This document shows, in pieces, positions 12,682 to 48,540 of a stretch of 50,073 nucleotides of DNA. The notes under the pieces are model-generated. The model saw only the letters and a list, made by a program, of their open reading frames with translations, ran no database searches and was not told the DNA's origin. The stretch lies in NCBI GenBank assembly GCA_902555465.1, contig CACDSN010000010.1, forward strand, positions 1-50,073, written 5' to 3'. Numbering within the stretch: position 1 is the stretch's first letter; every line of letters begins with the position of its first letter. Position numbers and translations under genes: made by a program. Source of the stretch: an uncultured Pelagibacteraceae bacterium (GTDB taxonomy: Bacteria; Pseudomonadota; Alphaproteobacteria; Pelagibacterales; Pelagibacteraceae).

Positions 12682-12969
12682 ATGGCAAGTACAGATATTA
12701 TTATACATGATAAAAAAGACAACGTTGGTGTTGTTGTAATTGAAAAAGTCGCACCAAATCAAACATGTAATTGTTGGATTATGGAAGGTGATGGTTCAGC
12801 GACAGTAGAGGCTAAAAATGAAGTTCCTCTCGGTCATAAGTTAGCATTAGTCGATTTAAATGAAGGTGATACAATTATTAAATACGGCCATGACATAGGA
12901 AAAGTAGTAAAAACTATAAAAAAAGGTGAACATGTACATGTTCATAATGTTAAAACAAAAAAATGGTAG
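12682..12969 (+). CDS. suyA: Sulfolactate sulfo-lyase alpha-like subunit (SAF domain, UxaA family)
   Basis: A 95-residue SAF-domain protein of the UxaA/altronate dehydratase family, IIIHDKKDNVGVVVIEKV to VHNVKTKKW, ending in the HVHNVKT motif typical of the small subunits. In SuyAB this subunit pairs with a roughly 390-residue SuyB to split (R)-sulfolactate into pyruvate and sulfite. The partner gene begins 5 bases downstream. The choice of SuyA over a sugar-acid dehydratase subunit rests on the xsc, TauE and apr neighbours and on the subunit lengths. Confidence 0.78.
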   Translation: MASTDIIIHDKKDNVGVVVIEKVAPNQTCNCWIMEGDGSATVEAKNEVPLGHKLALVDLNEGDTIIKYGHDIGKVVKTIKKGEHVHVHNVKTKKW

Positions 12970-40932: not shown

Positions 40933-41949
40933 TTAGCAGTTTTTGAACGAAGCAGACATATTTCTAATTAAATCGAAATATAAATCTTTACCTGGATTTA
41001 AAGTTGCTCCTAATGGGTCAACTACTCCAGTTTTTATATCCATGTCTTTTGCTACTGCTTTAATGATATCTGGATTGAATTGTGGTTCTGAAAATACGCA
41101 AGCGACTTTGTCATGCTCAATAATTTCTCTGATTTCAGCTAATTGCTCTGCACCTGGCATTATATCTGTATTAACTGTAAATGCTCCCAAAATATTCACA
41201 TTAAATCTTTCTTCAAAATATTGGTATGCATCATGAAAGACTATAGAAGCAACACTTTTATTTAATTCAGATTTTGTATCTTTAATTAACTTATCAATAT
41301 CCTTAAGAGCTTTTGCTAAGTTTTTTTTATAAGTTGCAGAGTTTTTTTCATCATTTTCAATTAAATGCTCAGCCATTTCTTTTAAAATAACTTTCGCATT
41401 AACAGGGTCTAACCAAATGTGTGGGTCAAACTCACCATGAGCGTGTCCTTCGTGGTCATCATGTCCGTGGTCGTCATGATCATCTTCTTTTTTACCGTGG
41501 TCATCGTGTCCGTGGTCGTCATGATCATCTTCTTTTTTACCGTGGTCATCGTGTCCGTGTTCATCGTGATCATGGTCATCAAAAATATTTCTTTCTCTAA
41601 ATTTTAAAATCTCTAAACCTTTAATTTCCATTAATTCTATTTTTTCTGCCTTTTTGGCAATTGAGCTCAATGGTTTAACTAAAAAATTCTCTAAATCTTC
41701 ACCTACCCAAAATATAATATCTGCTTCCTGAAGCATTTTTGCATGTGAAGGTTTCATGGCAAAGCCGTGTGGAGAAGCATATCCATCCACTATTAAATCA
41801 GGTTTGCCGATACCATCCATTAAATAACTGGCTAAAGAGTGAATAGGTTTAATGGATGCAACAACTTTAACTTCTGCATTTGCAGATGTAAAGAATGTCA
41901 AAAATGATATTATTGTAAGAAAGAAAGGAATTTTTTTTATATAAGACAT
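40933..41949 (-). CDS. znuA: Zinc ABC transporter substrate-binding protein ZnuA
   Basis: A 338-residue periplasmic zinc-binding protein with a signal peptide (FFLTIISFLTFFTSANA). It has a metal-site histidine in VDGYASPHGFAMKP and a cluster A-I body with PHIWLDPVNAKVILKEMAEHL. A long His/Asp loop between residues about 120 and 170 contains a 15-residue unit present twice in full, encoded by a 45-base tandem repeat. The gene is divergent from znuC over two Zur-box-like palindromes. Confidence 0.95.
   Translation of the reverse strand: MSYIKKIPFFLTIISFLTFFTSANAEVKVVASIKPIHSLASYLMDGIGKPDLIVDGYASPHGFAMKPSHAKMLQEADIIFWVGEDLENFLVKPLSSIAKKAEKIELMEIKGLEILKFRERNIFDDHDHDEHGHDDHGKKEDDHDDHGHDDHGKKEDDHDDHGHDDHEGHAHGEFDPHIWLDPVNAKVILKEMAEHLIENDEKNSATYKKNLAKALKDIDKLIKDTKSELNKSVASIVFHDAYQYFEERFNVNILGAFTVNTDIMPGAEQLAEIREIIEHDKVACVFSEPQFNPDIIKAVAKDMDIKTGVVDPLGATLNPGKDLYFDLIRNMSASFKNC
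41452..41580. repeat. 45-base tandem repeat inside znuA
   Basis: Two nearly identical 45-base units (41452-41496 and 41497-41541) are followed by a partial third. Each codes for 15 residues rich in His, Asp and Gly with a KKED segment. This is an in-frame expansion of the zinc-chaperoning loop and a likely site of copy-number variation between strains. Confidence 0.9.
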
Positions 41950-41960
41950 AAGTTTAATAT

Positions 41961-41975
41961 TGTTATATTATAACA
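41961..41975. promoter_or_regulatory. Zur-box-like operator 1
   Basis: TGTTATATTATAACA is a 7-1-7 perfect inverted repeat in the 64-base gap between znuA and znuC. Its form (GTTATA...TATAAC) matches alphaproteobacterial Zur boxes. A second copy lies 5 bases away. A zur gene ends the divergent operon. Confidence 0.8.
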
Positions 41976-41979
41976 CTAT

Positions 41980-41994
41980 GTAATAATATAACAT
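41980..41994. promoter_or_regulatory. Zur-box-like operator 2
   Basis: GTAATAATATAACAT; read on the minus strand it is ATGTTATATTATTAC, one base off the core of operator 1. It lies 19 bases from the znuC ATG. Two adjacent sites suggest cooperative binding covering both divergent promoters. Confidence 0.72.
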
Positions 41995-42013
41995 TTAGAA
42001 GTCAAGCATTAAA

Positions 42014-42760
42014 ATGAGCTCAAATAATAACATATTAGTAAAATTAAAAAACGCTGGATACCAACTAAATAATAGATTTCTAGTTGAGGGAGTTTCTCTC
42101 GAGGTTCAAAAAGGAAGAATTGTAACTCTCATCGGTCCAAACGGTTCAGGAAAAAGTACAACTGCTAAAATTGCATTAGGAATATATAAAAAAATAGATG
42201 GTGAAGTTGAAAAATATACTGACAAAGTTGGATATGTACCTCAAAAAATTTCAATTGATTGGACGCTACCCATAAGAGTCAACGATTTTATGTTATTAAC
42301 AGATGATATAAGTGAGGATCAAATAAACGAGGCATTATCTTTAACTGGAGTTATACATCTTAAAAATAAAAGTTTAGGAAATTTATCTGGTGGTGAATTT
42401 CAAAGAGTTCTACTCGCTAGAGCCATTTCGAAAAAACCAGAACTATTAGTACTTGATGAACCTGTCCAAGGAGTAGATTTTACGGGTGAAATAGCTTTAT
42501 ATCAATTAATCAAAAAAATTGCTCAAGAATTAAATTGTGGAATTTTATTAATTTCTCACGACCTACATACTGTGATGAGCGCAACAGACCATGTTGTTTG
42601 TTTAAATGGTCATGTTTGTTGTTCAGGTTCACCTTCTGATGTAGCTCATAATCACGAATATAAAGCTTTATTCGGAGAACAGGCATCTAAAACTCTTACA
42701 ATCTACGAACATAAGCATGATCATGTTCACACTAATGAAGGAGATATTAAGAAAAACTAA
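42014..42760 (+). CDS. znuC: Zinc ABC transporter ATP-binding protein ZnuC
   Basis: A 248-residue ABC ATPase with Walker A GPNGSGKST near residue 40, Q-loop VGYVPQKISIDWTLP, signature LSGGEFQR, Walker B LLVLDEPVQGVD and switch His in LISHDLHTVMSATD. The C-terminal tail is histidine-rich (EHKHDHVHTNEGD), typical of zinc importers. It is followed without a gap by znuB. Confidence 0.95.
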   Translation: MSSNNNILVKLKNAGYQLNNRFLVEGVSLEVQKGRIVTLIGPNGSGKSTTAKIALGIYKKIDGEVEKYTDKVGYVPQKISIDWTLPIRVNDFMLLTDDISEDQINEALSLTGVIHLKNKSLGNLSGGEFQRVLLARAISKKPELLVLDEPVQGVDFTGEIALYQLIKKIAQELNCGILLISHDLHTVMSATDHVVCLNGHVCCSGSPSDVAHNHEYKALFGEQASKTLTIYEHKHDHVHTNEGDIKKN

Positions 42761-43564
42761 ATGTTTGATGATTTTTTTATACGAGCATTATTTGCTGGAA
42801 TTGGTGTTGCGTTTGTAACAGGTCCACTTGGATGTTTTGTTGTTTGGAGAAGACTATCTTATTTTGGAGATACTCTTGCACACTCCGCTCTACTTGGTGT
42901 GACGATGGCATATTCTTTTGAATTTAATATTGCATTCTCTGTTTTTATAATTTCTGCAGTTATTGCGTTGATTTTAATTCAACTTCAGAAAAAAACTAAT
43001 TTACCAGGTGATGCTTTGTTAGGTCTTCTCGCACATTCTTCTTTAGCAATTGGACTCGTAGTAATTGGATTTTTATCTTTTATTAGATTTGATATAATGG
43101 GTTTATTATTTGGAGATATACTAGCGGTAACTGTTGATGATATATTGATTATATGGATTGGTGGAGCAATCATTTTAGTAGTACTTAAATTAATTTGGAA
43201 ATCTTTATTTGCTTCAACTGTTAACTACGAATTAGCTGAAGCTGAAGGATTAAATCCGGATAGAGCAAAAGCAATATTTACAATATTAATGGCTGCGGTT
43301 ATTGCAATATCAATAAAAATGGTTGGCTTACTTTTAATTACAGGAATGTTGATAATACCAGCTGCTATGGCTCGAAATATATCTACAAGTCCTCAGCAAA
43401 TGGTATTTTATTCAGTAATAGGAGGATTATTATCTGTAGTATTGGGATTGTTTACCTCATTAGAATTTAATTCTTCCTCTGGTCCTTCAATCATAGCAGC
43501 TGCATTATTTCTCTTTATACTTTCATTATTAAAAATAAAACAAAGTACTGGATTGAAAAATTAA
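42761..43564 (+). CDS. znuB: Zinc ABC transporter permease ZnuB
   Basis: A 267-residue ABC-3 family permease with about eight helices. Hallmarks are GPLGCFVVWRRLSYFGDTLAHSALLGV, GLLFGDILAV, and KMVGLLLITGMLIIPAAMARN. It starts right after the znuC stop codon and lies 21 bases ahead of zur. Confidence 0.95.
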   Translation: MFDDFFIRALFAGIGVAFVTGPLGCFVVWRRLSYFGDTLAHSALLGVTMAYSFEFNIAFSVFIISAVIALILIQLQKKTNLPGDALLGLLAHSSLAIGLVVIGFLSFIRFDIMGLLFGDILAVTVDDILIIWIGGAIILVVLKLIWKSLFASTVNYELAEAEGLNPDRAKAIFTILMAAVIAISIKMVGLLLITGMLIIPAAMARNISTSPQQMVFYSVIGGLLSVVLGLFTSLEFNSSSGPSIIAAALFLFILSLLKIKQSTGLKN

Positions 43565-43585
43565 AATGAAATTGGTAAAAATATA

Positions 43586-43987
43586 ATGGTGGAAAAACAA
43601 TTGAATTTATCAAAAAATCAGAAAATTATTTTTGATCTTATTGATAAATCTCCCGAGCCTATGAAGGCTTACTCAATACTTTTTAATGTCCAAAAAAAAG
43701 GGATCAAGGCACCGTTACAGGTATATAGAGCACTAGATAAATTAGTAGAAATTGGAAAAATACATAAAATTGAAAGTCGTAATGCTTTCATTGCTTGTCA
43801 AAATTCAAGCTGTCAAATATCTAAGACAACAGCATTTTCAATATGTGAAAGTTGTGAAAAAGTAACTGAAATAAAAGATAATAAACTTGCAAAATACTTA
43901 ACCAACTTTAGTGACAACACCGGAATGAATTATAAAAAATATAATTTAGAATTTTTTGGTTTGTGTAAAAAGTGTAAAAGAAAATAG
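43586..43987 (+). CDS. zur: Fur-family zinc regulator Zur
   Basis: 133 residues: N-terminal winged helix (LSKNQKIIFDLIDKSPEPMKAYSIL, APLQVYRALDKLVEIGKIHKI), then a metal domain with CQNSSCQ, ICESCEKV and the C-terminal structural pair FGLCKKCKRK. Lodged in the znu operon, it is expected to repress znuA and znuCB-zur through the palindromes at 41961-41994. Confidence 0.92.
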   Translation: MVEKQLNLSKNQKIIFDLIDKSPEPMKAYSILFNVQKKGIKAPLQVYRALDKLVEIGKIHKIESRNAFIACQNSSCQISKTTAFSICESCEKVTEIKDNKLAKYLTNFSDNTGMNYKKYNLEFFGLCKKCKRK

Positions 43988-45534: not shown

Positions 45535-46812
45535 TTAGAACTGTTCAGACTCTGTGGATCCATCCATTGCAGTAGTCGAACTTTTTCCTGAACTTATTGT
45601 GTTGGATACTGCATCAAAATAAGATGTTCCAACTTCTCTTTGATGTTTAACGCTTGTGTATCCATCTTTTTCTCTAGCAAATTCATGTTGCTGGATTTTT
45701 GAATAAGCAGCCATTCCCTCTTCTTTATATTTCTCTGCTAAATCAAAAATAGCAATATTCTGTGTATGGAAACCTGCTAAAGTTATAAATTGAAATTTAT
45801 AACCCATTTCAGCAATTTTATTTTGGAATGATCCAATTTCATCATCAGATAAATGCTTTTTCCAATTAAATGATGGAGAACAATTATAAGCAAGTAACTT
45901 CCCTGGAAATTTTTCATGAATTGCATCAGCAAATTTTTTTGCTTCTTCTAAATTAGGAGTAGCAGTTTCACACCAAATTAAATCAGCGTATGGAGCATAT
46001 GCTAATCCTCTTGAGATAGCTTGGTCAATACCGTCCTTAACGTAAAAGAATCCTTCAGGTGATCTTTCACCTGTCAAAAAAGGTTTATCATTTTCATCAA
46101 AATCATTTGTGATAAGTTTTGCAGCATTAGCATCAGTTCTTGCTAAAAGAATAAGGGGAACATCAGCGATATCTGATGCTAATCTTGCTGCCTTCAAATT
46201 CCTAACCATTGTGCTAGTTGGAACCAAAACTTTACCACCCATGTGACCACATTTTTTTTCGCTTGCTAATTGATCTTCAAAGTGAACACCCGCGGCACCC
46301 GCTTTTATAAATTTTTTTGTTAATTCAAATACATTTAAAGGACCACCAAATCCCGCCTCTCCATCTGCAACTATTGGCAATAAATAATCGGTTCTATCTT
46401 TTTCTTTCATATCACCATCTAAAATTTCCATATGTTGAATTTGATCCGCTCTTATTAAAGCATTATTCATTGCCTCTACTAATTTTGGCGCACTATCATA
46501 AGGATACAAAGATTGATCTGGATACATTTCTCCAGCACTATTTGCATCCGCTGCAACTTGCCAACCACTCAAATAAATTGCCTTTAGACCTGCTTTTGCA
46601 TGTTGCACAGCTTGATTTCCTGATAGAGATCCAAGTGTATTAACATGAGGTTCTGTATTTAATAATTTCCAAAGTTTTTCGGACTGCTGTTTGGAAATTG
46701 AATGTTCAATCTTGATTGATCCTTTTAATCTTTCAACTTCCTCCGGAGTATAATCTCTCTTTATTCCTGCAAATCTTTTTAATTTAAATGATACTTTACC
46801 CTCTGATGACAT
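45535..46812 (-). CDS. aceA: Isocitrate lyase
   Basis: AceA splits isocitrate into glyoxylate and succinate in the glyoxylate bypass. The 425 residues match bacterial forms. The catalytic loop [14 protein letters not shown] has Cys188, and [28 protein letters not shown] and [12 protein letters not shown] are all conserved. A GGGG-type ribosome site lies ahead of the ATG. A 53-residue gene lies 27 bases upstream on the same strand, and a ScfR-type regulator is divergent, implying control by short-chain acyl-CoA status. Confidence 0.97.
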
Positions 46813-46839: not shown

Positions 46840-47001
46840 TTAAGAGCTTTGATTTTGATCATTGTTTTCTGTGCTCATTTCGTTCATTCCACTTGAGCCC
46901 CAGTCGCAATGGTCGTCTCTAAGGTAAATACCTCTAGATCTGTGTTCTTTGATATCTTGCTCTGTAATCTGATTTTGCGTGTTTTTATTAAATTCGTTCA
47001 T
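46840..47001 (-). CDS. 53-residue protein encoded ahead of aceA
   Basis: ATG at 47001 opens a polar 53-residue frame: MNEFNKNTQNQITEQDIKEH, then RSRGIYLRDDHCDWGSSG and a Gln/Asn/Ser-rich tail. The middle motif with one Cys and one Trp looks like something conserved rather than random AT-rich coding. There is no membrane helix. It is the first gene of the aceA transcript, with its start codon inside a 20-base palindrome. Function unknown. Confidence 0.65.
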   Translation of the reverse strand: MNEFNKNTQNQITEQDIKEHRSRGIYLRDDHCDWGSSGMNEMSTENNDQNQSS

Positions 47002-47020
47002 GTAAATTATATAATTTACA
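47001..47020. promoter_or_regulatory. 20-base perfect palindrome at the start of the aceA operon
   Basis: The two 10-base halves TGTAAATTAT and ATAATTTACA are exact reverse complements. The site begins at the ATG of the 53-residue gene and overlaps the TTTACAAA repeat operator next to it. It is probably part of the same control region. Confidence 0.6.
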
Positions 47021-47031
47021 AAGTTTACAAA
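47015..47031. promoter_or_regulatory. TTTACAAA direct-repeat operator, aceA side
   Basis: TTTACAAAGTTTACAAA: two TTTACAAA units one base apart. ScfR-family regulators are reported to bind TTTGCAAA-type repeats (RamB, PccR), so this is a good candidate operator for the divergent regulator gene. Confidence 0.75.
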
Positions 47032-47088
47032 ATAAAGGATAATGTTACTTTTAGCTTGTAAAAATTGGAAATTTTTTGTAAATTAATA

Positions 47089-47105
47089 TTTACAAAGTTT
47101 ACAAA
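47089..47105. promoter_or_regulatory. TTTACAAA direct-repeat operator, regulator side
   Basis: An exact second copy of the 17-base operator, same orientation, 74 bases from the first and 11 bases upstream of the regulator ATG. An inverted single unit TTTGTAAA lies at 47075-47082. The placement fits autoregulation by blocking its own start region. Confidence 0.75.
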
Positions 47106-47115
47106 TAGAAAATTT

Positions 47116-48540
47116 ATGAGCAACGAAAACTTAAAAATTGGACCAAAAATCAAGGCTTTTAGAAGACAAGTAGGACTTCAGGCAAATAAGTTCGCTGAGG
47201 ACTTAGGAATATCTCCAAGTTATTTAAACCTTATTGAAAGCGGGAAGAGAAAAATTGATGGCGATTTACTTCTTAAGGTTTGCGATAAATTAAAAATTCA
47301 ATTGTCTGATCTAACAGCGAAATCAGACTTAAACTTATATAATAATATATCTGAGATATTAGATGATACGCTTTTTGAAGATTTAGATATTCTTGCTCCA
47401 GAAGTAAAAGATCTAGTTTCAACAAACCCTAAGATTGGAAAAGCTATATTACGATTAGGTGATATTTTAAAAAAGAAAGATCACGAGCTAGTAAATAAAA
47501 TTGAAAAGCTTTCTGGTAAAATTGTTGATAATAGAAAAAATTCATTTCCAGGTGAAGTTATAGCAGATTTCGTACAAGAGAATAAAAATTTCTTTCCTAA
47601 ACTTGAGCAATTTGCAGAAAAAATATTTAATGAAATTCAAAAAAATAATCGAACAAGATATATTGCATTATGTGAATACCTTTATTCTAAATATTCAATT
47701 ACAGTTAAAGATGTAATTCCGGAAGACAGTAAGCCTTTTTCAAAAATATATCATAAAAATAAAAAAGAACTTTTGTTGAGTGATTATAAATCTTTAGAAA
47801 CAAAAAAACTTTATGCAGCTGCCCAAATTGCACAAGAAGGAGCGTCAGACGAGATTAATGAATATTTAGAAACTTTTAAGTTTCCATCTACTGAATCTAA
47901 AAATTTAGCAAAAGTTGCGCTATTAAACTACTGTGGAGCTGCAATTCTAATGCCATATAAATTATTTCATACTGAGTGTAAAAAATTAAAATATGATTTA
48001 GAACTTTTACAAAATACGTTTGCAACTTCTTTTGAACAAGTCGCACACAGAGTAACCTGTTTACAAGACCCTAAGCTTCCTGGAATTCCATTTCATATGT
48101 TGAGAGTTGATATGGCGGGAAATATTTCGAAAAGATTTTCAATTTCAGGTATTGAAATTCCTAGATATGGAGGAGCTTGTCCTAGATGGAATGTTTACTC
48201 TGCCTTTTCAAGACCAAATATAATTCAAGTTGCTGTAAGTAAAATGACTAACGGAGAAAAGTATGTTTGTATTGCTCGTACAGTTGAAAAAGGTGTAGGA
48301 AAATTTGGAGAACCTAAAGGAATGCTTTCAATCGGTTTAGGTTGTGAAGCTAAATATGCAAAAGACTTTGTCTATACAGAAAACATAGATGTCAATGATA
48401 AAAAAACTGAAACGCCTATAGGAGTTTCTTGTAGAACTTGTGATAGATTAGATTGTGCTCAAAGAGCATTTCCTCCTCTCCATAAAAAATTTGATGTAGA
48501 TATAAATAATAGGGGTGTTTCAGTTTACGTAAATGAGTAA
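47116..48540 (+). CDS. ScfR/RamB-type XRE regulator of short-chain acyl-CoA metabolism
   Basis: I place the start at 47116 (MSNENLKIGPKIKAFRRQVG), giving 474 residues; the longer frame from 47065 would run through the operator. An XRE helix-turn-helix (KFAEDLGISPSYLNLIESGKRK) is followed by an IrrE-like domain (YCGAAILMPYKLFH) and a C-terminal Cys-rich domain (GVSCRTCDRLDCAQRAFPPL). This architecture defines the RamB/PccR/MccR group that controls acetate or propionate genes, including isocitrate lyase in Corynebacterium. The divergent aceA operon is the obvious target. Confidence 0.9.
   Translation: MSNENLKIGPKIKAFRRQVGLQANKFAEDLGISPSYLNLIESGKRKIDGDLLLKVCDKLKIQLSDLTAKSDLNLYNNISEILDDTLFEDLDILAPEVKDLVSTNPKIGKAILRLGDILKKKDHELVNKIEKLSGKIVDNRKNSFPGEVIADFVQENKNFFPKLEQFAEKIFNEIQKNNRTRYIALCEYLYSKYSITVKDVIPEDSKPFSKIYHKNKKELLLSDYKSLETKKLYAAAQIAQEGASDEINEYLETFKFPSTESKNLAKVALLNYCGAAILMPYKLFHTECKKLKYDLELLQNTFATSFEQVAHRVTCLQDPKLPGIPFHMLRVDMAGNISKRFSISGIEIPRYGGACPRWNVYSAFSRPNIIQVAVSKMTNGEKYVCIARTVEKGVGKFGEPKGMLSIGLGCEAKYAKDFVYTENIDVNDKKTETPIGVSCRTCDRLDCAQRAFPPLHKKFDVDINNRGVSVYVNE

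Follow-up and report, generated by a model that had tools for sequence, protein, structure and literature searches.

SAR11 bacteria are among the sea's most abundant cells, and the way in which they route two-carbon units influences ocean respiration, notably under iron scarcity. In a 50,073-nucleotide stretch of an uncultured Pelagibacteraceae genome (contig CACDSN010000010.1 of assembly GCA_902555465.1; hereafter the window), the isocitrate lyase gene aceA lies divergent from a gene for an ScfR-family transcriptional regulator, and two identical 17-bp sequences stand between them. The locus amounts to one regulator and two sites, and the published co-induction of aceA and the regulator gene SAR11_1242 under iron limitation has so far gone unexplained. 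What the two sites do, and for which protein, is the question addressed here. Our analysis leads us to propose a dedicated, autoregulated glyoxylate-shunt switch that probably acts in its bound form as a repressor of both divergent units.

Paired sites at a single locus

The aceA gene (45535-46812, minus strand; 425 aa, Pfam ICL, 1.1e-112) is preceded, 27 bp upstream on the same strand, by a gene for a 53-aa microprotein (46840-47001), and the regulator gene (474 aa) occupies 47116-48540 on the plus strand. Between them the 17-mer TTTACAAAGTTTACAAA occurs at 47015-47031 (site 1, on the aceA side) and at 47089-47105 (site 2, on the regulator side), both on the plus strand. The preliminary description had reported identical 17-base direct repeats 74 bases apart, and these are indeed present at 74 bp start to start, their identity extending to 18 bases from 47014 and 47088. 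Each candidate operator reads TTTACAAA-G-TTTACAAA, that is, two boxes separated by one base. The 17-mer has no other copy in the 1.16-Mb genome, and exact TTTACAAA-N-TTTACAAA pairs are likewise confined to the two copies at this locus, where a dinucleotide model expects 0.0 exact pairs per 50 kb. The single TTTACAAA box is common, with 336 copies in the genome, so that the information resides in the pair only.

No further paired site is supported in the SAR11 genome, and the candidate regulon comprises one locus. In the genome G046, assembled as one contig of 1,308,759 bp, the two locus sites are the sole matches at up to one mismatch. The one-mismatch hits inspected at other places in G000 and G012 were weighed as possible regulon members and rejected: they lie in or near unrelated genes (for example mutM-, purL- and murC-like, by eye), and their count is no higher than that of a reversed-pattern control. 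Malate synthase was rejected as a co-target, a lone half-box 89 bp upstream being all that was found there, with the paired site absent. A scan for pairs near such genes had been suggested as a check, and for malate synthase it returned none. The glyoxylate-bypass switch first proposed is supported in part, by the conserved paired sites and the ScfR neighbour; it would act on aceA, the microprotein gene and probably the regulator gene itself.

Conservation was assessed in 105 distinct loci of the genus, selected for the presence of both aceA and the regulator gene on the contig. The two genes are divergent in all 105, and both sites were found in every one. Site 2 is exact in 91 loci and carries at most two mismatches in any; site 1 is exact in 24 and has one mismatch in a further 68 (92 together), with no locus exceeding three. 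Mean pairwise identity is 0.90 for site 1 and 0.96 for site 2, compared with 0.71 for the spacer. The sites are 73 bp apart in 77 loci and 74 bp apart in 28, a constancy that closely related loci share partly through descent; a spacing of 64 bp seen in four loci proved to be a register artefact, the true value being 73. Beyond the genus, in five loci from three further genera of the family (L177-L181), with regulators only 56-66% identical, both sites are kept with no more than two mismatches, where chance would supply 0.005-0.01 matches or fewer. There the spacing is 89-90 bp and site 2 is flipped relative to the Pelagibacter arrangement, site 1 retaining its orientation. The expectation that the sites would persist upstream of aceA in relatives was thus borne out, paired boxes being present in every examined relative with a complete locus.

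Across the genomes that were tested, the genes for isocitrate lyase, the microprotein and the regulator are almost always jointly present or jointly absent. The exceptions are G118, with aceA only (contig C28); G136 and G183, each with a partial regulator only; and G410, with a marginal microprotein match only. Several fairly complete Pelagibacter genomes, G054, G079, G100, G134 and G138 among them, have none of the three, which suggests that the whole glyoxylate switch has been lost in part of the genus, or else that the contigs concerned went unassembled.

The position of the sites relative to the genes is also constrained. Site 1 and the start codon of the microprotein gene are offset by a constant 16 bp in 103 of the 105 loci, and the ATG of the regulator follows the end of site 2 by 5-10 nt; a protein bound at the two sites would thus probably sit at or near both transcription starts. 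An inverted half-box, TTTGTAAA (47075-47082, minus strand), stands 6 bp ahead of site 2, and its TGTAAA is invariant across the 105 loci. The conservation profile further reveals a strongly conserved CTTGTAAA element which, together with TAAATT, forms a possible regulator promoter of the form TTGTAA-N17-TAAATT (47056-47084, plus strand); were it so used, site 2 would cover the transcription start. A sigma-70 scan of the intergenic region gave nothing above shuffles, and the 47056-47084 element was not among its output. A search of the locus against Rfam at the gathering threshold found no riboswitch or other RNA element.

A PrpR-like regulator and a conserved microprotein

The Pfam domains of the regulator establish its family: HTH_3 (1.9e-11), a Peptidase_M78-like domain (9e-12) and a C-terminal ScfRs domain (7.1e-60), the combination that marks ScfR/IsaR proteins. 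Residues 69-467 align with the M. tuberculosis PrpR structures 6CZ6, 6CYJ and 6CYY (E about 1e-66). All four cysteines that hold the PrpR [4Fe-4S] cluster (PMC6765138) are present, as C355 and C439-x2-C442-x4-C447, matching the C-x2-C-x4-C motif plus GAF-domain cysteine of the family; aligned with PrpR, they are invariant in ten diverse members. In a genome scan for relatives outside the family, Pelagibacteraceae alone were among the matches listed. In five loci (L028, L029, L030, L031 and L175) the regulator is about 560-590 aa long and carries an extra N-terminal HTH copy fused in frame, possibly one HTH for each 8-bp box.

Among characterized systems, the closest in operator geometry is PrpR/MccR at prpDC and icl1. 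The M. tuberculosis PrpR footprint, TTTGCAAA-N-TTTGCgAA, has two 8-bp boxes with a single base pair between them (PMC3420887, PMC6765138). The SAR11 locus shares with it the domain architecture, the four cluster cysteines, the 8-1-8 layout of a 17-bp site and a regulator divergent from its target and tied to isocitrate lyase. Two TTTGCAAA-like boxes with a 1-bp gap occur in all 105 loci, one base off the published core: the SAR11 box is the asymmetric TTTACAAA where PrpR has TTTGCAAA. The SAR11 locus differs further in having two full sites 73-74 bp apart, with a microprotein gene between regulator and aceA. In contrast to the MccR subclass, which adjoins methylcitrate-cycle genes, there is no adjacent prpCD, and the presumed target is isocitrate lyase.

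The RamB proteins are further models. The Paracoccus denitrificans RamB (class 2) is likewise an alphaproteobacterial ScfR regulator divergent from glyoxylate-shunt genes. Its two boxes, however, are 18 bp apart (PMC10370305) and lie upstream of a malate synthase-icl operon, whereas in SAR11 the gap within a site is 1 bp, full sites recur at 73-74 bp start to start, and malate synthase is encoded elsewhere without a paired site. The RamB/PccR-like core noted in the preliminary description is accurate as to sequence, TTTACAAA being one base away from the published TTTGCAAA, but the layout is nearest to PrpR and unlike that of Paracoccus RamB. The class 1 RamB of Corynebacterium glutamicum and M. 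tuberculosis controls isocitrate lyase together with its own gene, as the SAR11 regulator would. Corynebacterium RamB controls several loci, whereas the SAR11 regulator has one candidate locus only. Class 1 recognition is of the TTTGC(A/G)AA type, as cited in PMC6765138. We found no paper describing this switch or its operators in SAR11 bacteria. Switches of this kind are known, whereas the SAR11 member, which conservation supports strongly as an ScfR switch with PrpR-like operators, is apparently undescribed.

The microprotein, with the core GIY[LMI]RDDHCDWGSSGM, belongs to a family present in 216 out of 397 genomes from the order (relatives L009-L261), and its core was detected in 103 of the 105 loci of the genus. 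The family core is [RN][DE]D-x-[CQ]-DWGSSG; at the C-terminus, all aligned loci of the genus read RDDHCDWGSSG, and forms such as REDDQDWGSSG appear in other genera. Mean entropy at codon positions 1, 2 and 3 is 0.25, 0.15 and 0.82, and the low values at the first two positions relative to the third mark a selected coding sequence. Because the core takes such other forms there, its cysteine is dispensable, which makes a metal site unlikely. The microprotein had no match in a Pfam scan and nothing credible in a PDB profile search, and its structure is predicted at low confidence (mean pLDDT 62.6). It is likely co-transcribed with aceA, which hints at partnership with either the enzyme or the regulator. 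This uncharacterised and strongly conserved family merits a name. In L178 and L180, both from one genus, a second small ORF of about 56 aa, starting MRREKNNIESNCVSFDD or MARDKHNIESNCVTLDD, lies between the microprotein gene and aceA.

Repression or activation, and a possible iron connection

Published expression data bear on how such a switch might work. The single-contig genome G046 is one that we take to be Ca. P. ubique HTCC1062, with which its gene order agrees. The order of its sfuABC-like genes and aceA matches the SAR11_1236-1242 listing in PMC2864753, and on this basis the regulator is SAR11_1242, aceA is SAR11_1240, and the microprotein is probably SAR11_1241. Under iron limitation, aceA rises 1.58-fold (p=0.091) and SAR11_1242 1.60-fold (p=0.054) in HTCC1062 (PMC2864753, Table 1).

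The steps that we infer, from binding and autoregulation through repression (rather than activation), ligand and bridging to the iron response, run as follows. By analogy with PrpR, the regulator would be a CoA-binding, [4Fe-4S]-containing tetramer, and it would bind the two 17-bp operators in the stretch that separates its gene from the microprotein-aceA operon. The bound form would repress both units, perhaps as a tetramer bridging the sites, and repression would be lifted when acyl-CoA levels change or when iron shortage deprives the protein of its cluster. A spacing of 73-74 bp, or about seven turns of the helix, would fit a tetramer contacting both sites; the 89-90 bp and flipped site of the other genera imply that a fixed bridging distance is no general rule. 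We favor repression of both genes on the strength of the site positions and of the co-induction of aceA and the regulator under iron limitation, the latter with weak p-values. The marginal significance of that induction, and a scan that yielded no convincing sigma-70 promoter, count against the proposal, as does the fall of prp expression in M. tuberculosis under iron starvation, which is opposite in sign.

The main rival is that the regulator activates aceA in the fashion of Paracoccus RamB and represses only itself, through site 2. Its strength lies in precedent, since Paracoccus RamB activates the glyoxylate operon and requires both boxes to do so (PMC10370305), and PrpR activates prpDC and icl1 (PMC3420887); the sign in SAR11 could accordingly differ from the one we favor. 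Consistent with activation, SAR11_1242 and the glyoxylate-cycle genes gyaR and glcFED are all higher in the light than in the dark in starved HTCC1062 (PMC3090418). Set against this are the closeness of site 1 to the microprotein start codon, a position commoner for repression, and the joint rise of aceA and the regulator under iron limitation, which fits a self-repressing activator less directly. On balance, we regard activation of aceA as a possibility to be kept in mind and one that we doubt.

Returning to the repressor that we favor, a bolder extension is that it serves as a sensor of both iron and acyl-CoA, loss of the cluster derepressing isocitrate lyase, with the microprotein as a new partner for either the enzyme or the regulator. 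We hold this combination to be rather unlikely. If true, it would explain the reported rise of SAR11 isocitrate lyase in iron-poor ocean water. Isocitrate lyase expression per SAR11 cell is reported to be higher in iron-limited water (PMC6618146).

Iron also enters a different explanation, in which the boxes would be operators of another regulator, for example of the Fur family, and the ScfR gene a mere neighbor. Steindler et al. report that SAR11_1242 and fur are both preceded by relaxed Fur-box-like motifs (PMC3090418), so that part of the present element may have been noticed earlier under another name, and in G046 (L273) sfuABC-like iron-uptake genes adjoin aceA. Yet box and geometry agree with the ScfR/PrpR footprint, and the paired sites are confined to one locus and accompany the ScfR gene from genus to genus, whereas a Fur regulon would be expected to have several sites; we consider this explanation very improbable. 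Near aceA in the window (40933-43987), by eye, are zinc-type ABC transporter genes and a Fur/Zur-like gene, unlike the iron-uptake genes of G046.

Finally, the notion that the perfect 20-bp palindrome TGTAAATTATATAATTTACA at the start of the small gene (47001-47020) is itself a functional operator is hardly credible: it is perfect in the source genome, where 0.15 of at least 20 bp are expected per 50 kb, but in only 7 of the 105 loci, its outer arm varies, and it is not repeated at site 2 with such spacing. In imperfect form, the CATGTAAA arm recurs in 73 of the 105 loci. The palindrome reported earlier is real, though it does not contain the ATG of the small gene (46999-47001, minus strand), with which it shares one base. 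The sole other perfect palindrome of at least 18 bp in the window is the 18-bp TGAACATGTACATGTTCA at 12927-12944.
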